DNA from: Deltaproteobacteria bacterium
GTDB taxonomy: Bacteria; Desulfobacterota; Syntrophia; Syntrophales; Smithellaceae
Reading direction: 5' to 3'
DNA length: 36,285 nucleotides
Assembly: GCA_025361065.1 (NCBI GenBank)
Contig: JANYAY010000136.1
Coordinates: forward strand, 1 to 36,285
The translations under genes were made by a program, and so were the position numbers. Under the pieces are notes generated by a model. That model searched no databases. It had not been told where the DNA came from and was given only the letters and a program-made list of their open reading frames with translations. Every line of letters starts with the position of its first letter. Position 1 is the stretch's first letter. Positions 1 through 36,285 of the stretch are shown here, one piece after another.

Positions 1-162
1 AGCCGTACCTGCCTGGCTCTAGATGGGCCGCAGGCATGGCTATGGATAACTCTCACATGGGGGAGGGAAACTTTCTTCTGATAACAGCTTAATAATATAG
101 ATGTTTCAATGAAAATATTAAAGAAATTTTGACATTACGGAACTTATTATGAGGAGGGTTTT
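1..162. other. Window edge, no gene recognised
   Basis: Two frames are open from the edge to about positions 81 and 96, too short to identify as the end of a gene. A good ribosome-binding site (GAGGAGG, 151-157) lies just before the ATG at 163. A TTGACA at 129-134 has no -10 box at a usable distance, so I do not call a promoter. Confidence 0.4.
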
Positions 163-10174: not shown

Positions 10175-10270
10175 AATCAACCACCTCGCAGCAAGCTGTC
10201 GAGGTATGAAATGAACGTCATTATATCGCAGCAAGCTGTGTGGAATTAACGCTCGTCCCGCGTGAGCGGG
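10175..10270 (+). repeat. 96-bp dispersed repeat, copy 1
   Basis: This segment aligns without gaps to 34922-35017 with 8 differences in 96 positions by hand count. Inside it TCGCAGCAAGCTG occurs twice, at 10186 and 10226, 40 bases apart. It ends in a small hairpin, CCCGC-GTGA-GCGGG (10257-10270). It lies in the intergenic region 10084-10441 between the envelope operon and queD. I see no other gene-like feature in that region. Confidence 0.85.
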
Positions 10271-10441
10271 ATTAAATTTACCCATAAATCGGCGCTGTTA
10301 AAGATATACTTAAATTGTCTTACAGTGTCAAGACGAAATAAACCACTGTTGCGGCAATGACAGTCCGTCACATTCCCCGGTTTAGCTCCAAATTCGCCTT
10401 TTTGAATTTATAAAGTTCGACCAATGGTGTGGCTTGGAGAA

Positions 10442-20438: not shown

Positions 20439-22844
20439 TTTATAAATATTGCCTTAAACATTCCTGCAGATAAACTCTTCACTTATGAAGTTCCCGCTGA
20501 TTTGCACAAACAAATTGCCATCGGCAAACGCGTTTTTGTCTCCTTCGGCCGGAGAAAACGTACCGGATTTATCGTCGCAATAAACAATTTCTGTAGCCTG
20601 GAAAAAGTAAAATCAGTCAGCGAAGTGCTGGATGAAGAACCGCTTTTCGGCGAACAGGACCTCCGTTTTTATCAGTGGATCGCCGATTATTTTATGTACC
20701 CGCTGGGCAAGGCACTGGCGGAAATTATCCCTGCCGGTTCGGAAAAGAAGGACTTTCTCTGGGTCACACCCCTGCCTTGGACAAACAAGATTTCCCTTCC
20801 TCCGGCACAAAACAAACTTCTTGAATTATTGCAGCAATATCCCCGGGGCATTGCAGCAAGCGGTCTTACCAGGATCAGCGGTATGATGAACATTTCAGCA
20901 ATGATCTGCAGCCTGCAATTAGCCGGGCTTCTGCAAATTGACGAAAAGCAAAAAAAACAACTTGCCCCACGCCGGGAAAATATTGCGACACTCAATAATA
21001 GTAAAATTGGCGAAGTTAAATTAACGAGGAAACAAGAAGAGCTCATTGCTTTTATGCAGACAAGAGGAAAAATGGCTCTGCATGATTTAATCTCGCAAGC
21101 CGGCACCTCCAGTGCAATCATCAAAAGGCTTCAGGATAAAGGTATAATTGAGCTTTCCGAGACCGAAAAAATACGCACTGCTGTTATTGAATCGTTAACT
21201 TACGAAAACGCAATTAAATATACTTTAAATTCCCGGCAGCAAAGTGCATTTCAGGAGATTTCCGCACATCTGGAAAAAAATATTTTTACGCCGATATTAT
21301 TACATGGCGTTACGGGAAGCGGAAAAACCGAAGTCTATTTAAATGCCATTGCCCAGGTACTGGAAAATGACGGCAGTGCAATTTATCTGGTTCCGGAAAT
21401 AGCCTTAACTCCGCAGTTAATCTCACGCATTCAAGGGCGCTTTAACCCCGAGCAGATTGCCATCATGCATAGCGGTATTGCCGAAGCTATCCGCTACGAC
21501 CAGTGGCGACAAATCAAACGCGGTCAAATCAAATTAGTAATCGGCGCCCGTTCCGCCCTCTTTGCCCCGCTGCCGAATTTAAAACTGATTATAGTCGATG
21601 AAGAACACGATGCTTCCTATAAACAGGATGACCGTCTTTGTTACCATGGGCGTGATCTGGCGGTGTTAAAAGCAAAGCTTAATCACGCTGTCGTGGTATT
21701 GGGATCGGCTACACCAGGTATTCGTTCATATTACAATGCCCGGAATAAAAAATATTTCTATCTGGAAATCTCACAGCGGGTGGAAGATAAACCGCTGCCC
21801 GAAATAGAAATTATCGATATGAAAGCACAGTTGGAAGCGCAAGGTAAAGCACCGATTCTTTCCGATGCTTTAATTGCGGCAATTGAGATGACTCTTACGA
21901 GAAAAGAACAGGTTTTACTTTTTCTCAACAAGCGAGGTTTTGACACATTCCTGGTTTGTGCGGATTGCGGTTATAATTTTCGCTGCCCCAATTGTGCCGT
22001 ATCTCTGAAGAGCCATGCTGCCGAAGGTGTTATCAAATGCCATTATTGCAACTATACCCAAAAAGCGCTGCCGGTTTGCCCCGCATGCGCTGGCTGCCGA
22101 ATTTTGAGCTATGGCGCCGGAACGCAAAAGCTGGAAGCGGCAGTAAAAGAACTTTTCCCGGAAACCCGCATTCAGCGGATGGATTCGGATACGACTGCGG
22201 TCAAAGGAGCACAGGAAAAAATATTACAGAAACTCTGGAGACGGGAAATTGACATTCTGGTGGGTACGCAAATGATTACCAAGGGACATGATTTCCCCTT
22301 CATAACTCTTGTCGGTGTCATCTCGGCTGACACATCTTTGAATATGCCTGATTTCCGTGCCGGAGAAAGAACTTTTCAACAGCTGACCCAGGTTGCCGGC
22401 CGCGGCGGCCGCGGCACTGCTCCCGGCAGAGTTATCATTCAGACTTTTAATCCGCAGCATTATGCTTTAAAACATGTCCGGAATCACGATTACAAATCTT
22501 TTTATGAAGAAGAAATCGCTTTTCGGAAAGACTTGAAATATCCGCCCTTCGGCCGGATTATTAATCTGCGTTTATCAGCAACGAAGAAAGAGACTCTTTG
22601 GGATCAGGCAAAACTCCTGGGAAAGATGGCAAAAAAGCTGAGTGCGGAATCCGGAAATAAAGTAGAAATAATCGGCCCGGCGGAATCGCCTCTGGCGAAA
22701 ATCAAAGGCCGCTTCCGGTTCCAGATGCTGCTCAAAAGCAATAATGCCGGCGCTCTGCATCAGATGGCGAAGCAACTTTTACACAAAATGGAGAAAAGCA
22801 CGGTGAAGATTACGGTGGATGTTGACCCGGAAAATTTCATGTGA
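20436..22844 (+). CDS. priA: Primosomal replication restart helicase PriA
   Basis: A superfamily-2 3'-5' DNA helicase that recognises stalled forks and reloads the replisome. It is 802 residues from the fourth ATG (20436), which gives the family-like start MFINIALNIPADKLFTYEVP. The frame can begin at 20418, which adds MPMPMP. No ribosome-binding site precedes any of the four ATGs, since a repeat abuts them. Features in order: the N-terminal DNA 3'-end-binding domain, Walker A GVTGSGKT (about 291-298), DEEH (about 388), the eight-cysteine zinc-binding module from about residue 508 (CADC, CPNC, CHYC, CPAC), then GTQMITKGHDFP and QVAGRGGRG. The last 142 bases are repeated almost perfectly at 24423-24564. 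Confidence 0.95.
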   Translation: MFINIALNIPADKLFTYEVPADLHKQIAIGKRVFVSFGRRKRTGFIVAINNFCSLEKVKSVSEVLDEEPLFGEQDLRFYQWIADYFMYPLGKALAEIIPAGSEKKDFLWVTPLPWTNKISLPPAQNKLLELLQQYPRGIAASGLTRISGMMNISAMICSLQLAGLLQIDEKQKKQLAPRRENIATLNNSKIGEVKLTRKQEELIAFMQTRGKMALHDLISQAGTSSAIIKRLQDKGIIELSETEKIRTAVIESLTYENAIKYTLNSRQQSAFQEISAHLEKNIFTPILLHGVTGSGKTEVYLNAIAQVLENDGSAIYLVPEIALTPQLISRIQGRFNPEQIAIMHSGIAEAIRYDQWRQIKRGQIKLVIGARSALFAPLPNLKLIIVDEEHDASYKQDDRLCYHGRDLAVLKAKLNHAVVVLGSATPGIRSYYNARNKKYFYLEISQRVEDKPLPEIEIIDMKAQLEAQGKAPILSDALIAAIEMTLTRKEQVLLFLNKRGFDTFLVCADCGYNFRCPNCAVSLKSHAAEGVIKCHYCNYTQKALPVCPACAGCRILSYGAGTQKLEAAVKELFPETRIQRMDSDTTAVKGAQEKILQKLWRREIDILVGTQMITKGHDFPFITLVGVISADTSLNMPDFRAGERTFQQLTQVAGRGGRGTAPGRVIIQTFNPQHYALKHVRNHDYKSFYEEEIAFRKDLKYPPFGRIINLRLSATKKETLWDQAKLLGKMAKKLSAESGNKVEIIGPAESPLAKIKGRFRFQMLLKSNNAGALHQMAKQLLHKMEKSTVKITVDVDPENFM
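22703..22844 (+). repeat. priA 3' end, first copy of a 142-bp direct repeat
   Basis: This segment, ending exactly at the priA TGA, recurs at 24423-24564 in the same orientation. A hand alignment shows one difference in 142 positions (22793 G versus 24513 A). The copies are 1,720 bases apart and enclose the VapBC- and HigBA-type modules. Confidence 0.95.
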
Positions 22845-22847
22845 GTG

Positions 22848-22988
22848 GCGCTGTTGAAATACCCTGAAGGGCACGCGAACGCTCATATGCTGCGTTGCGC
22901 TTCGCTCTTCGGCGTTGCGGCGTATGCAAAAATACGCCTCACTTCTCAGACCTCGTACGCCGCGCCTCTGAACGTTTTTGAACAGCCC
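22848..22988 (+). repeat. Inverted-repeat element, copy 2, immediately after priA
   Basis: It begins with GCTGTTGAAA just past the priA stop and ends with TTTTTGAACAGCCCC, giving short terminal inverted repeats (CTGTTSAAA). The interior, CGCTCATATGCTGCGTT through CGTATG and ATACGCCTCAC, matches copy 3 at 24566. It has about 17 extra bases near its left end. It can fold and may terminate transcription between the convergent priA and vapC genes. Confidence 0.8.
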
Positions 22989-23002
22989 CCATACAGGGCT
23001 TC

Positions 23003-23377
23003 TTATTTCTTCGGAAAATAGTTCACATTTCTTATGCTTTTAAAATCTGAATCCTGTGTCCAGATAATGGCATTGAATGCCTGAGCTGTTGCGAGGATAA
23101 TGCTGTCCGCCATGGGTAGATTATGCTCCAAACCTAGCCCCGAAGCGGTAATGGCCAATGAAGCGTTCAGATCAACAACCGTTCCTTTTCGCATAGCAGC
23201 AACCGCCTGCAGTGCTTCATTTTCACTTACCTCCCGCAGAATGACCTTGAAGACTTCATGTATTGTTATCGTCGGAACTACCAGCGAAGCCGAATCACTT
23301 AGCGGAACAAGGAACTGTTTGGCATTAGCCTCATCCGCAAAGTACGCAAGCCAGCCGGAGGAATCTACAATGTTCAT
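23003..23377 (-). CDS. vapC: PIN-domain toxin, VapC-type
   Basis: A 124-residue PIN-domain endoribonuclease-like toxin. The acidic active-site residues are present: Asp5 (MNIVDSS), Glu41 (HEVFKV), Asp91 (MADSIILATA) and Asp109/Asp111 (TQDSDF). These coordinate Mg2+ in VapC proteins, which cut tRNA or rRNA. It is the second gene of a two-gene unit; its ATG overlaps the antitoxin stop by four bases (23374-23377), typical of translational coupling. It is convergent with priA, with an inverted-repeat element between. The sequence is complete, with no disabling change. The RNA target cannot be told from sequence. Confidence 0.92.
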   Translation of the reverse strand: MNIVDSSGWLAYFADEANAKQFLVPLSDSASLVVPTITIHEVFKVILREVSENEALQAVAAMRKGTVVDLNASLAITASGLGLEHNLPMADSIILATAQAFNAIIWTQDSDFKSIRNVNYFPKK

Positions 23378-23580
23378 ACTCTATCTTCCTCTCGTTGGAA
23401 TTTCGTATTGATGCCCTTGAGAAATCCACGGAGTTCTTTGATATCGCGTTCCGGTATAAGCTCGATACGTCCGGCATATTCGATAACCTGCATTTTTTGG
23501 CCCGGACGAAGCTTCAATGCATCCCTGACTGTTTTTGGGATAACTACTTGATATTTCGGTGACACAGTTACTGATTGCAT
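23374..23580 (-). CDS. vapB: AbrB/MazE-type (SpoVT-AbrB fold) antitoxin, VapB-type
   Basis: A 68-residue swapped-hairpin AbrB-type DNA-binding antitoxin: VSPKYQVVIPKTVRDALKLRPGQKM is the classic domain, and the C-terminal tail (GFLKGINTKFQREEDR) should wrap the PIN toxin. GGAGG lies seven bases before the ATG. A promoter with an inverted repeat lies upstream (23611-23640), consistent with autoregulation by the VapBC complex. It overlaps vapC by four bases. Confidence 0.9.
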   Translation of the reverse strand: MQSVTVSPKYQVVIPKTVRDALKLRPGQKMQVIEYAGRIELIPERDIKELRGFLKGINTKFQREEDRV

Positions 23581-23610
23581 GCCGATACCTCCATCGATCT
23601 ATTTGGTATT

Positions 23611-23640
23611 ACGATATCATGATCGATATAGTTTTGTCAA
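23611..23640 (-). promoter_or_regulatory. Promoter with dyad for the VapBC-type module
   Basis: On the minus strand TTGACA (23640-23635) is followed after 18 bases by TATCGT (23616-23611). Inside the spacer and -10 region is the inverted repeat ATATC-N6-GATAT (23614-23629), a plausible operator for the AbrB-type antitoxin. The ATG lies 31 bases downstream. Confidence 0.6.
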
Positions 23641-23679
23641 TTATATTAACAAGCTATTGCTTGTTCCCGGGAAAACCCA

Positions 23680-23955
23680 TTAGGCTATATGAACCTGTAA
23701 TCTTTTACCCAGCGCGTTGGCAACCCTCTCCAGAGTGGAAAGCTTAATGTCTTCGGCGTGATTTTCTATTCTGGAAATAGCAGTCTTCTTTGTTTTAAGG
23801 CGTGTTGCCAGTTCTTCCTGTGTCAGTCCTGCCGATTCTCTGGCCTGACGTAAAATAACTCCAATCTTAAACTGTTCGTAACCTTCATCAAATCCCTCGG
23901 CGAATTTCTTGTCCTTCTTTTTTCTGGTATCTATATATTTTTTTAAATCGCTCAT
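23680..23955 (-). CDS. higA: XRE-family antitoxin, HigA-type
   Basis: A 91-residue protein with a lysine-rich N-terminal arm ([14 protein letters not shown]) and an HTH_3 (Cro/CI) domain: [35 protein letters not shown]. It is the downstream partner of a RelE/HigB-like toxin gene, overlapping it by four bases (23952-23955). The toxin-first order is the HigBA hallmark. It should bind both the toxin and the operator upstream of higB. The next gene on the strand is the vapBC pair, about 100 bases on with its own promoter. Confidence 0.9.
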
Positions 23956-24308
23956 ATCTTTTTCCTCCTGCTTAAAAAATCTTTCCTGTAACTTTCTGCT
24001 CGATCAATTTCCTGCTTTGGTGTTTTCTGAGTTTTCTTTATCAAGCCATGCGTTAATATCACCACTGCCTGTGTGTCAAAGAAGCAGAATATCCGATATA
24101 TGTTAGAACCATATTGCACCCGGCATTCCCATATCCCGTCTGTGCCTGTCAGTTTCTTAAAATATGTGGATGGCAGTTTTTCCAAATCCTCCAGAAGTCT
24201 AAGCGTCCACAATACTTTCTGAGCAACCTTGTCGGATAAAGAATCAAGAAATTCCTGGACAGGGCACTTTCCGTCCGCAGTCTTGTAAAAAATTACCGTT
24301 CGGTTCAT
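23952..24308 (-). CDS. higB: RelE-superfamily toxin, HigB/phage Gp49-like
   Basis: A 118-residue protein of the phage-derived Gp49-like/HigB family: [29 protein letters not shown] and [29 protein letters not shown], then [16 protein letters not shown]. The basic C-terminal segment ([16 protein letters not shown]) is where family members place catalytic or RNA-contact residues; they cut mRNA on the ribosome. It is the first gene of the pair. No Shine-Dalgarno sequence precedes its ATG, and the start lies only six bases past a promoter-embedded dyad, so translation may be weak and the transcript almost leaderless. Confidence 0.9.
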
Positions 24309-24313
24309 GTCTG

Positions 24314-24343
24314 AAGGTTAACCTGCAAGTTAACCTTTGTCAA
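24314..24343 (-). promoter_or_regulatory. HigBA promoter overlapped by a perfect dyad operator
   Basis: Arms AAGGTTAAC (24314-24322) and GTTAACCTT (24329-24337) are perfect 9-base inverted repeats separated by six bases. On the minus strand TTGACA (24343-24338) directly abuts the dyad and is the likely -35 box. A weak -10 would fall inside the right arm. Binding here by the XRE antitoxin would block the promoter, the usual TA autoregulation. Confidence 0.7.
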
Positions 24344-24422
24344 GAGGATTTATAGTTATTCCATTTCTGAGCCTGAACTGAAGTTCAATTGTCAAGGGTA
24401 AAGATGCGACCCCGTTTTTTGA
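24344..24422. other. Junction before the duplicated priA end
   Basis: This short segment contains the inverted repeat TGAAC-TGAA-GTTCA (24374-24387), then GTCAAGGGTAAAGATGCG and a T-run ending just before the duplicated priA segment. It looks like the edge of a mobile or recombined unit, but no transposase is seen. Confidence 0.35.
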
Positions 24423-24564
24423 CAAAGGCCGCTTCCGGTTCCAGATGCTGCTCAAAAGCAATAATGCCGGCGCTCTGCATCAGATGGCGAAGCAACTTTT
24501 ACACAAAATGGAAAAAAGCACGGTGAAGATTACGGTGGATGTTGACCCGGAAAATTTCATGTGA
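24423..24564 (+). pseudogene. Duplicated fragment of the priA 3' end
   Basis: This 142-bp segment is identical to 22703-22844 except at one base. It encodes the last 46 codons of PriA plus TGA and has no start or upstream part, so it is not functional by itself. It may be an attachment-like or recombination repeat, marking the edge of the segment that carries the two TA modules. Confidence 0.9.
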
Positions 24565-24565
24565 T

Positions 24566-24690
24566 GGGTGCTGTTGAAAAACGCTCATATGCTGCGTTTC
24601 CCTCATCTTTCGTCGCTGCGGCGTATGTAAATATACGCCTCACTCCTCAAGACTCGGGGGCCTTGCATCTGAACATTTTTGAACAGCCCC
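24566..24690 (+). repeat. Inverted-repeat element, copy 3, after the duplicated priA end
   Basis: It starts just past the duplicated TGA with GGTGCTGTTGAAAAACG and ends TTTTTGAACAGCCCC, so the termini are inverted repeats. The interior matches copy 2 but with many substitutions and no 17-base insert. It is therefore far more diverged from copy 2 than the adjoining priA segments are from each other. From 24691 to 24807 I see nothing gene-like. Confidence 0.8.
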
Positions 24691-24807
24691 AAAGACCCCT
24701 AGGCAGAGTTTTTTGGCTCGTCCTACCATTAGAGTAATGCTGTATTTCCGATAACTGGCTTAACATAGTGTCCACGGCAATCCTCTGCAAGTCGTGGTTA
24801 ACCGGTA

Positions 24808-25386
24808 CTAATCCAATCTCAAAAACACTTCTGCTGTACCATCAGCCTTTATATCCCAGTACCTTGGCTGCTTTGGAACAATTGCCCCGTTACTGAGTTT
24901 GAAATCGAAGATTTCCTTTTCTATAGCTGACAGTCGTTTAAGATTTTGTTTGGCAAGTTTCTCGAAGTCTATTTTTGCTACGCTTGGGTTCATGTGATGT
25001 ATGTCTGCACGGTAACTATTCCAAATCCTCATAGAGGCGTCTGCGCAGGTATCGGAGATAATACTATTTTCTGTAAATTCTTCAATGAGTTCAGCAATTG
25101 TTTTCGTAGTTCCGTCTGTCTTATGCCTTTTAATATCGTTTCTTTCAGCCACAAATTTGATAATGCCCTCATTGATAGAGTGACTCATCATAACGGCACC
25201 GATGAAATAGCCATCACGGTAGAGGTAAATGCACTCGGACGAAGCGGGTGCAAAGTAGTGCCCACCAATTATCCCCTGATGTTCGATCTCAAGGTATCTA
25301 TCTATCTTCTCCTTTATGAAACTACGGCACTGGGATTCAATGCTTTCTTTTACCGTGCTCCTCTTCATAACTTCAGAAGTGTTCAT
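24808..25386 (-). CDS. Uncharacterised protein, possible HEPN-type fold
   Basis: A 192-residue soluble protein I do not firmly recognise. It is mainly helical at both ends with a short strand segment (CIYLYRDGYFIGAVMMSH, about 52-69). The segment WNSYRADIHHMNP contains R126-X4-H131, which fits the RX4-6H active-site signature of HEPN ribonucleases, in a helix followed by an Asn-Pro turn as often seen there. This is suggestive only. It starts 24 bases after the stop of the upstream FlgT-like/TPR gene, with GAGGA five bases before the ATG, so the two are likely co-transcribed. It lies in a region rich in toxin-antitoxin genes. It could instead be a plain helical accessory protein. Confidence 0.6.
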   Translation of the reverse strand: MNTSEVMKRSTVKESIESQCRSFIKEKIDRYLEIEHQGIIGGHYFAPASSECIYLYRDGYFIGAVMMSHSINEGIIKFVAERNDIKRHKTDGTTKTIAELIEEFTENSIISDTCADASMRIWNSYRADIHHMNPSVAKIDFEKLAKQNLKRLSAIEKEIFDFKLSNGAIVPKQPRYWDIKADGTAEVFLRLD

Positions 25387-25410
25387 TTATTCCTCGTTTA
25401 GCGATAGGTT

Positions 25411-26385
25411 TCAACGGCAATATCCCTTGCCTTTAGCTATTTCTAACAATCCGCAGTCTCCCAAGACACATGCCTTTTGCGCATCGCGGCAGCCAAGTTC
25501 ATTGTTGCCCTGCTTTAAATAAATAACCCCTCGATTGTTATAGATGATCACATCATCTGGTCTATGGCGGATGACCTCATTAAAGTCCTCAATGGCGCGT
25601 TGATACTCGCCGATGTTATAGAAGGAAATCCCTCGATTACCATAGGCATCGCCATTATCTGGTATCAATCGGATAACCGCATTAAAGTAATCAATGGCAC
25701 GTTGATATTGGCCGACGTTTTTATAGGCTATACCGCGATTGTAATAGACAATGGCATAATCCGGATTCAGCGAAATTGCATTTGCTAGATATTCGGCTGC
25801 CTTCTCGGGATTGGCAATTTTCTGCCCATCCCACAATTCTTCTACCTTCTTAAACCAATCCAATGCCGTTAGCCCCTCAGATGTTTGTTGGAATTCATTT
25901 TTTAACTTTTCAGTGCTTTGTTTTTTTGCTGAAAGTTCACGGTTTTCTTCTTCAAGCTGCGCAACCTTCTGGAGGAGTTCCTTTTCTCTTTTCTGCGTAT
26001 CTTGGAGCTGTGTCAGGTGGGTTCTGTCTTGCAGTTGTTTTTTTACTCTTTCTTCCAAGAGAGAGGTATCCACAACGACATTGACAACAATCTCCATACC
26101 GAAGGCATCGTCTGTGTGATAATTCTTTTGGGAAACAACTTCTGCCCTGAGAACACCGGCGGCAATTGCCAGAATTTCATCTTTCTCCACTTTGGAGTTT
26201 TGGACAACGGTGAGGCTTTCAATATAGGTTCCTGCTTTTTCCAGAGCTTCCCTTTTGGCTAAGGCTATGCCGGAAATCCGGGCGTCATCAGGCGATTGGC
26301 CGCCACCGAATGTCTGCTTTACGGTATGGGTAACTGTTAGAATTTCGCCCATGGCGGAAACAGGCAGGAATAGCAAAATAGTCAA
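25411..26385 (-). CDS. FlgT/LPP20-like domain plus coiled coil and TPR protein, probably frameshifted at its signal peptide
   Basis: The 324-residue frame begins at a TTG with no ribosome-binding site, in the middle of a signal peptide (TILLFLPVSAMG). An ATG at 26408 with GGAG eight bases upstream encodes MKISSPPF and then hits TGA. Adding one T in the T5 run (26384-26388) would join it to this frame and give a complete signal peptide, so a one-base loss or sequencing error is likely. Domains: a FlgT-N/LPP20-like domain (about 20-110; ARISGIALAKREALEKAG, MEIVVNVVVD), a coiled coil (about 112-168), then TPR units (about 195-300; YYNRGIAYKNVGQYQRAIDYFN and two similar). Its first domain resembles that of the protein at 8971-10083. 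Confidence 0.72.
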   Translation of the reverse strand: MTILLFLPVSAMGEILTVTHTVKQTFGGGQSPDDARISGIALAKREALEKAGTYIESLTVVQNSKVEKDEILAIAAGVLRAEVVSQKNYHTDDAFGMEIVVNVVVDTSLLEERVKKQLQDRTHLTQLQDTQKREKELLQKVAQLEEENRELSAKKQSTEKLKNEFQQTSEGLTALDWFKKVEELWDGQKIANPEKAAEYLANAISLNPDYAIVYYNRGIAYKNVGQYQRAIDYFNAVIRLIPDNGDAYGNRGISFYNIGEYQRAIEDFNEVIRHRPDDVIIYNNRGVIYLKQGNNELGCRDAQKACVLGDCGLLEIAKGKGYCR

Positions 26386-26506: not shown

Positions 26507-26722
26507 TCAGGAACTAAAAACGAAAACTTCACTAACTGCCTGCATTTTCGGTAATTTAATTTTTTCTTCTAACAAACCTTCAAGATGCAGTTGCATGGCT
26601 TCATATATATTTTTTTCGGTCTCGTTTTTTGTGCGGCCAGTGGCGATGCATCCGGGCAGATCAGGAACATAGGCGCTATAACCGGTTTTCGTTTTTTCAA
26701 ATACGACTAAATATTTTCTCAT
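26507..26722 (-). CDS. hicB: HicB-family antitoxin
   Basis: A 71-residue protein with the degraded RNase H-like fold of HicB: YLVVFEKTKTGYSAYVPDLPGCIATGRTKNETEKNIYEAM. I start it at the ATG at 26722, which has AGAGGTG about six bases upstream. A GTG three codons earlier overlaps the hicA stop. It lacks a C-terminal DNA-binding extension and ends in a short hydrophobic tail. It neutralises HicA by direct binding. The toxin-antitoxin order on the minus strand is the usual hicA-hicB. Confidence 0.92.
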   Translation of the reverse strand: MRKYLVVFEKTKTGYSAYVPDLPGCIATGRTKNETEKNIYEAMQLHLEGLLEEKIKLPKMQAVSEVFVFSS

Positions 26723-26727
26723 ATTTT

Positions 26728-26925
26728 TCACCTCTTAATTTTGATCTGCGCTTGCTTTACAATGCTATCCAGTGTTCCTTGTGCAACATCATCCGACATT
26801 TTGTGGCATGCTATTGTTACCAAGCCTTTTTTTACCGGATGTTTATATTGCTTATGGCTGCCTCTTTGGCGAATTTCAAACCAGCCATCTTTAGTAATGA
26901 TATTAATTATATCTTTTACCTTCAT
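26728..26925 (-). CDS. hicA: HicA-family toxin
   Basis: A 65-residue double-stranded RNA-binding-like mRNA interferase. The catalytic His is present at position 24 in GSHKQYKHP. The rest follows the HicA pattern (VKDIINIITKDGWFEIRQRGSH, then GTLDSIVKQAQI). Only the segment before the last helix (TIACHKMSDDVAQ) is less conserved than usual. A perfect palindrome ATGATATCAT (26924-26933) covers the start codon and could be part of the operator. It is probably active unless bound by the downstream HicB. Confidence 0.93.
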   Translation of the reverse strand: MKVKDIINIITKDGWFEIRQRGSHKQYKHPVKKGLVTIACHKMSDDVAQGTLDSIVKQAQIKIKR

Positions 26926-27075: not shown

Positions 27076-27540
27076 ATGGAAGACTCAACGGAACCTTTAA
27101 TAGATATAGTCGCGGAGATGCTGTTTTTTGATTGTTTTAAAAAAGAAGAAATCAGTTTGCTTCTGGATTTAGGAACCTGGATTAATGTTACTCCCGGAAA
27201 CCGGATAATTACCAAAGGCGAAATTGATCTGCGAATGTTTGTTCTGGTACAGGGACGTGCCGAGGTTGTCCTTCAAGAAAAGATTTTAGCAGTACTGAAT
27301 GCCGGAGACATCTTCGGTGAAGTCGGGTTGATGGGTGCTCCCCGTATGGCTCACGTCGAAGCGCAAACGGATTGCCTGCTTTTGTCCTTCGACGCCGAAC
27401 AACTCAACAACCTGCCTTTAGAACTACAGGTGAAATTTCTGCGGCGAATTTTGTTCGCCACTTTTGCCCGTCTGCAGAAAATCAACCAGTGGGATTGGCT
27501 GCGCCGGCATCCCAAGAAAGATTCAACAATAGAACTATGA
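27076..27540 (+). CDS. Cyclic-nucleotide-binding-domain protein
   Basis: A 154-residue protein consisting of one CAP-ED (cNMP-binding) domain. The fold is seen in LFFDCFKKEEISLLLDLG, GNRIITKGE, MFVLVQGRAEVVL, and the phosphate-binding cassette FGEVGLMGAPRMAHVEA (residues 80-96), with Arg90 in the position that binds the cyclic phosphate. No HTH, kinase or channel domain follows, so it is a stand-alone sensor or adaptor. The promoter places the transcription start at the ATG, so the message is probably leaderless. An ATG at 27118 would remove the first helix and is less likely. It is monocistronic or loosely linked to the BON-like gene 114 bases downstream. Confidence 0.85.
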   Translation: MEDSTEPLIDIVAEMLFFDCFKKEEISLLLDLGTWINVTPGNRIITKGEIDLRMFVLVQGRAEVVLQEKILAVLNAGDIFGEVGLMGAPRMAHVEAQTDCLLLSFDAEQLNNLPLELQVKFLRRILFATFARLQKINQWDWLRRHPKKDSTIEL

Positions 27541-34203: not shown

Positions 34204-34956
34204 ATGGTAAGGATCATGAAACTCAAAATCAGCTACATTTCAAAACAGAGCGGCGTTCCTGCGTCCACCATCCGCTACTACGTCCGGGAAGAGCTCCTTC
34301 CCGCGCCGGAAAAAGTCAACAAGAAGATGTCCTATTATGACGAAGCCTGTATCGAAAGACTTAAGGTCATTCAGTATCTGCAGGAAAAGCGCTACTTTCC
34401 CCTATATCTCATCAAAAACATTCTCCACCGGATGGATGAAGGACTCAGCCTGCAGGAAGCCGAAACCGTCGAAAAGGCCGTTTTCAACCCCGTGGATCGC
34501 GGGGACAGAAATCTCGTGGACGGGGAAACGGCCATGATGGAAACGGGATTGAAAAAGGAGGAACTGGAGTATGCGGAAAAAATCGGCATTCTGATTCCCT
34601 TTTCTGTAGAAGGGGGAAAATCACTTTACAATGAGGACGACATCCGGCTCTGCCGCGACGTCCTTAAAAGGATCGTCGATTACGGACTGGATTTCCAGGA
34701 ACTTGCCTTTTATGTGGAACTGGGCACATCCATCATGGAGAAGGAGATGGATCTCCGCCGAAAAATCGTTTCCGATAAAACCGTCAAGGAAAACGTCCGG
34801 ATCACCGTGGAGCTGTCCACGGCTGGAGACTTTCTCCGCGAATATATCATGCGGCGTCTTTTCCGGCGACAGGTCCAGGAAAATATTCAGAAGAGCCTCA
34901 AAAAGCGGACAACAAAAGACCAATCAACCAACTCGCAGAAAGCTGTCAAGGTATGA
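34204..34956 (+). CDS. MerR-family transcriptional regulator with a second MerR-like motif
   Basis: A 250-residue regulator. The N-terminal winged HTH is MerR-type (KISYISKQSGVPASTIRYYVREELLP, then MSYYDEACIERLKVIQYLQ). A second stretch at about 110-165 (TGLKKEELEYAEKIGILIP, YNEDDIRLCRDVLKRIVDYGLD) looks like another MerR-type unit or a helical effector domain. No Cys metal-binding site is seen. The ATG at 34204 lacks a ribosome-binding site. The ATG at 34216, before KLKISYI, has AAGGA upstream but only two bases away, so the start is uncertain. The last dozen codons and the stop lie in the 96-bp dispersed repeat (34922 onward), so the C-terminus is repeat-derived. It is followed by the nitronate monooxygenase-like gene. 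Confidence 0.82.
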   Translation: MVRIMKLKISYISKQSGVPASTIRYYVREELLPAPEKVNKKMSYYDEACIERLKVIQYLQEKRYFPLYLIKNILHRMDEGLSLQEAETVEKAVFNPVDRGDRNLVDGETAMMETGLKKEELEYAEKIGILIPFSVEGGKSLYNEDDIRLCRDVLKRIVDYGLDFQELAFYVELGTSIMEKEMDLRRKIVSDKTVKENVRITVELSTAGDFLREYIMRRLFRRQVQENIQKSLKKRTTKDQSTNSQKAVKV

Positions 34957-35017
34957 AATAAACGTCATTATATCGCAGCAAACTGAGGAGAATTAACGCT
35001 CGTCCCGCGTGAGCGGG
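34922..35017 (+). repeat. 96-bp dispersed repeat, copy 2, overlapping the MerR gene end
   Basis: This copy matches 10175-10270 with 8 differences in 96 positions by hand count. It begins inside the MerR-type CDS, so it supplies the last codons and the TGA at 34954-34956, and ends 23 bases before the next start. It contains the CCCGC-GTGA-GCGGG hairpin (35004-35017). Confidence 0.85.
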
Positions 35018-35040
35018 ATAAATCATAAGGAGAAATATAA

Positions 35041-36030: not shown

Positions 36031-36285
36031 TCTCTCATCATTTTTTTACACAGCGGTAGATTCTTATCGGCCATTTAACGAAAAATACTGGGAGCAGGAG
36101 GATGAATTAAAGCGCCCCTGCGACGTTTTCGAGATAAATTCAAGAATCGGTAGTGTCAAAAGTTTTATGAAAACTAGCACGGATAAATGAAAAGAGAGAT
36201 AGGATTTGGTTCGGGAGTAAAAGCAAGAGCCATTTGACATAGCGATAATGTTTGTCGGAAGATTTCAGGCAAACTTAGGCCATAA
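36031..36285. other. Window end, no gene recognised
   Basis: No gene is seen. A perfect small dyad AGTTTT-ATG-AAAACT lies at 36161-36175. It could belong to the end of an insertion sequence, but no transposase is visible before the window ends. Confidence 0.4.

Follow-up and report, generated by a model that had tools for sequence, protein, structure and literature searches.

In an uncultured Smithella-like bacterium, a 1.7-kb segment carrying two predicted toxin-antitoxin (TA) pairs was found to be bounded on both sides by a direct repeat that is part of the priA end. The most likely reading is a genuine scar, probably of recent date, left by a single recombination event at a variable locus. 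In the window, i.e., the whole stretch of 36,285 nucleotides that was analysed (Table 1), the final 142 bases of priA, stop codon included (22703-22844), were repeated at 24423-24564 with one difference and a start-to-start spacing of 1720 bases. The functional priA includes the first copy, and its 808-residue product contains all expected domains; the second copy is a priA fragment without its head. An earlier note on this DNA, made from the letters alone, had reported this recurrence of 142 bases 1,720 bases downstream with one difference, VapBC- and HigBA-type genes between the copies, and no visible integrase in the enclosed DNA. Alignment and genome search confirmed the repeat, while domain searches of the segment bore out the lack of an integrase and, as "-like" pairs, both sets of TA genes.

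The sole mismatch between the copies (22793 G, 24513 A) corresponds to codons GAG and GAA, which are synonymous in priA. A chance origin of the repeat is excluded by its E-value (7.8e-68) and by the 2 matches in total of the 142-mer in its own 3.95-Mb genome. In a survey of interior repeats that covered sampled stretches of this genome (0.9 Mb of 3.95 Mb), the priA-end repeat was the only direct pair of at least 100 bases with at least 99% identity. The copies were 99.3% identical, and 1 difference in 142 positions corresponds to a 95% upper bound on divergence of approximately 3.3%, thus indicating that both priA ends stem from one species or from two that are nearly identical. The A at 24513 in copy 2 is also present in the closest relative, G003. 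As weak evidence from a single site, this shared base is consistent with the most likely identity of copy 2, the displaced native priA end.

Table 1. Features in and around the priA-cNMP interval (window coordinates).
Feature	Coordinates	Strand	Evidence or remarks
priA, intact, 808 aa	20418..22844	+	NCBIfam NF004066 839 bits; Pfam PriA_3primeBD, PriA_C; open over full length
Copy 1 of direct repeat, functional priA 3' end	22703..22844	+	Alignment, genome search
Palindromic dispersed element 1	22850..22990	+	Genome search, alignment; found after priA in several relatives
PIN-domain toxin (VapC-like)	23003..23377	-	Pfam PF01850 4e-15
AbrB/MazE-type antitoxin (VapB-like)	23374..23580	-	PF04014 3e-9, TIGR01439 9e-14
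HTH antitoxin (HigA-like)	23680..23955	-	PF01381 1e-12
Gp49/RelE-type toxin (HigB-like)	23952..24308	-	PF05973 4e-24
Short palindromic family motif (TTGTCAA...TTGACAA)	24386..24422	+	Searches of family genomes and own genome
Copy 2 of direct repeat, truncated priA end	24423..24564	+	Alignment, genome search
Palindromic element 2	24567..24692	+	Alignment
orf192	24808..25386	-	No assigned protein family; the one relative at the DNA level within the bacterial family is that behind priA in G028
TPR protein	25411..26385	-	Also downstream of priA in G028 and G008
hicBA, third TA pair in the priA-cNMP interval	26507..26925	-	Pfam HicA 6e-18, HicB-like 1e-11
cNMP-binding-domain gene	27076..27540	+	In congeners G001 and G003, 46-110 bp downstream of priA

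Both enclosed type II TA pairs consisted of adjacent toxin and antitoxin genes with the respective family domains, and in the higBA-like pair the toxin gene precedes the antitoxin gene, with an overlap of 4 bases. On the basis of these domains, the pairs are predicted to be VapBC-like and HigBA-like type II TA modules, the suffix being used because the calls scored below the NCBIfam equivalog cut-offs. No integrase, transposase or tRNA was found in the segment between the priA-end copies. Past copy 2, element 2 was followed by orf192, the TPR-protein gene, hicBA and the cNMP-domain gene.

Named relatives place the genome in the Smithella group, with one genome sampled for this species. The earlier note had expected an empty site in close relatives, and two congeners (G001 and G003) showed one: a single priA end before the cNMP gene, at the distances given in Table 1. 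Since priA stands directly before the cNMP gene in these congeners, the entire priA-cNMP interval is extra in the present genome; a remnant of the palindromic element is kept in G001. In G028, a member of another genus, the order priA-element-orf192-TPR matches the DNA after copy 2, and the copy-2 side was alignable with this genome over 24514-25662 at 77% DNA identity. Relative to G028, orf192 showed 86% identity at the DNA level and 84% at the amino acid level, whereas the PriA proteins were 68% identical; the higher identity of the orf192 DNA is an apparent sign of transfer. The context after copy 1 is resembled by that in G022, in which a single priA end is followed by vapBC. The junction in G022 differs and no palindromic element of the window type is present, and vapBC may have been inserted there independently. 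Each side of the stack thus has a same-site counterpart in another genome and, on this comparison, the window appears to combine, one behind the other, two alternative forms of the variable locus that lies downstream of priA.

A survey of 155 genomes of the class used the last 63 residues of PriA as query. A priA end was detectable in 142 of these, and a second, tandem priA end occurred in one of the 155, the present genome. Three other genomes showed a second PriA-end match on a separate contig. Insertions with the same repeat recurring at priA were found in none of the other class genomes among the 155 searched.

The likeness of the two copies extends past the stop codon: a few bases further on, each runs into a dispersed palindromic element. 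Elements 1 and 2 (~125 bp each) were 81% identical with an indel of ~17 bases, and element 2 was nearest (84%) to the elements that follow priA in genus g5 (G028 and G034). A search of its own genome gave 29 matches to the element, partial ones included, and about 18 full or partial copies were noted there besides the two in the window. In many genomes of the family, an element of this type (~125 bp) trails the priA stop codon. Copies with differing terminal sequences were observed to retain complementary ends, which suggests selection for a hairpin.

The left edge of copy 2 is directly abutted by the short palindromic motif. At 24422/24423 no homology was detected past the repeat edge, and this position is a putative illegitimate junction. 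Approximately 16 copies of the motif were detected in family genomes; the present genome contained the copy at 24386..24422 and one copy with 2 mismatches, and no others. Such near-absence elsewhere in the genome is consistent with an outside origin of the segment. Across family genomes the motif, CAATTGTCAAGRGTAAAGATKYGACCCCG (24386-24422), which has palindromic ends, was seen at unrelated places.

As the cause of the priA-end duplication, one non-dedicated recombination event that left a scar, rather than a dedicated mobile element, is moderately probable. Near-identical priA ends combined with differing downstream DNA would be the expected result of single-crossover integration of a fragment with a conspecific priA end and other downstream DNA. 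We infer an ancestral order of priA-element 2-orf192-TPR-hicBA-cNMP gene and a donor, from this species or one nearly identical to it, that would have carried priA end-element 1-vapBC-higBA. The donor fragment would have spanned the DNA from 142 bases before the priA stop to the short palindromic motif near 24422. Its ends could have been joined into a circle that then entered the priA end through a single RecA crossover. Alternatively, by homology-facilitated illegitimate recombination (HFIR), it could have invaded in linear form, pairing with the homologous priA end while its other side was joined illegitimately. The functional priA would thereby have acquired the donor end and the TA cargo, and the native end would have been pushed 1,720 bp downstream, where it would be silent. 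The 142-bp repeat would now allow RecA to excise the insert exactly, and the TA pairs would select against such loss. No genome searched showed the presumed donor arrangement, in which vapBC and higBA would jointly adjoin priA, and the one genome sampled for this species shows no unstacked allele.

An intrachromosomal tandem duplication of the priA end together with its element, which TA genes then split and in which one element was replaced by conversion from other genomic copies, is conceivable but doubtful. It would account for the presence, after both copies, of an element of one family with many genomic copies. However, it needs three events, and the priA ends must have stayed near-identical while the elements diverged to 81%. 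In addition, element 2 and the DNA that follows it have their counterpart at this very site in G028, a sign that the block was inherited or transferred. The contrast between 81% identity of the elements and 99.3% identity of the priA ends indicates that the unit was not simply tandem-duplicated, and a simple tandem duplication was rejected because the elements are too different.

An assembly artefact, in which two co-assembled strains that differ after priA were joined in one contig and the repeat represents a k-mer overlap, is unlikely. The longest stretch shared between contig ends in this assembly measures exactly 141 bases, which implies an assembler overlap of k = 141, close to the 142 bp of the repeat, and the repeat ends exactly at the point where the two contexts diverge. 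However, the internal mismatch leaves exact stretches of 90 and 51 bases, and a k = 141 graph resolves such copies; upstream of the mismatch, an artefactual overlap should measure 141 bases, whereas 90 were observed. Graph joins moreover require reads across the junction, and the contigs contained no scaffold gaps, with N present only as wholly masked contigs. A systematic k-mer artefact was rejected, since other contig interiors in the 0.9 Mb showed no ~141-base repeat of such length and identity. For metagenome assemblies in general, repeats about one k-mer long call for read-level checks. Both ends of the window (1-141 and 36146-36285), as well as the ends of many other contigs of this genome, lie inside highly repeated sequences with many copies each; the assembly was apparently fragmented by at least one expanded insertion sequence.

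The vapBC unit occurred at places other than priA in approximately 20 family genomes, often between attC-like sites, and one further vapBC unit was present in its own genome (contig C166). Relatives of higBA were found in a few genomes and never adjoined vapBC or priA. Beside priA in other genomes, vapBC was found in G022 only and higBA in none. The occurrence of relatives of both pairs away from priA indicates that the TA genes spread independently of the priA end. In many Smithellaceae genomes, the placement of vapBC units between attC-like sites corresponds to an integron cassette arrangement.

The earlier note had read the locus as integration with the gene end reconstituted or as a recombination-made duplication, and had named TA genes in relatives without a second priA end as evidence against its reading. 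Its proposal found support in the empty sites of two congeners, in the lack of any other tandem priA end and in the occurrence of the alternative contexts singly in relatives. The part that found no support is a dedicated integrating element, in view of the missing integrase, the lack of recurrence and the TA pairs in relatives without a priA duplicate. That vapBC lies beside a single priA end in G022 argues in part against a cargo that travels with the priA end. Recombination, whether by single crossover or by HFIR, explains the duplication better than a dedicated integrating element. A small element that targets and restores the priA 3' end, with its integrase supplied in trans, would share the geometry of islands that restore a gene end and is very improbable: the segment contains neither an integrase nor a defined attachment core, just one genome of the 155 from the class has a tandem priA end, and the TA pairs were also encountered elsewhere without priA. 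With no integrase, no recurrence and no plasmid matches to the segment, a dedicated mobile element was rejected. Delivery of vapBC and the remainder of the segment by integron-type cassette insertion, the least credible alternative, could draw on the relatives' vapBC units between attC-like sites and on an IntI-type integrase encoded on contig C62 of the same genome, but by inspection neither vapBC nor higBA is flanked by an attC-like site in the window, and cassette insertion duplicates no gene end, so that it is largely refuted as the cause of the duplication and may instead belong to the older history of vapBC.

Genomic islands are known to restore a gene's 3' end, as at the icd-type sites of phage 21 and e14. 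As in these islands, priA is intact and the duplicate end is displaced to the far side of the insert; unlike them, the priA segment has no integrase, no recurrence and no shown att core. In experiments with the lacZ end of E. coli, circularised linear fragments integrated by single crossover and generated gene-end duplications of 109-950 bp (PMC3240628). The 142-bp gene-end duplication likewise flanks cargo without an integrase but, in contrast to those experiments, the priA case is a natural event. For T6SS loci of Vibrio, HFIR has been proposed to explain how displaced modules came to be stacked along with the 3' gene ends that were shifted with them (PMC5361080). Consistent with that scheme, a new module lies at a conserved gene anchor, with the older module and a gene-end remnant shifted downstream. 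The Vibrio modules encode effector-immunity pairs, whereas the present locus involves TA cargo, a priA anchor and one instance. The priA case adds a new example to an outcome that is already known; a search of the literature for TA cargo enclosed by repeats of a gene end found nothing.

The locus provides a natural, readable case of TA genes added beside an essential gene without an integrase, and of the way in which a TA pair could keep in place an insertion between direct repeats that would otherwise be lost by recombination. A broader reading, quite unlikely, is that exchange in this family takes place preferentially in the DNA behind priA, where alternative TA and accessory modules would be swapped or stacked via the conserved priA end and the palindromic element that trails it; TA pairs would then lock in place stacks that RecA otherwise renders unstable.

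A 101-bp repeat was also observed in the window, at 10175-10275 and 34922-35022, and its second copy overlaps the end of a MerR-like gene. This repeat was rejected as a further gene-end duplication because it belongs to a dispersed family, with ~30 matches in 0.9 Mb of the genome.
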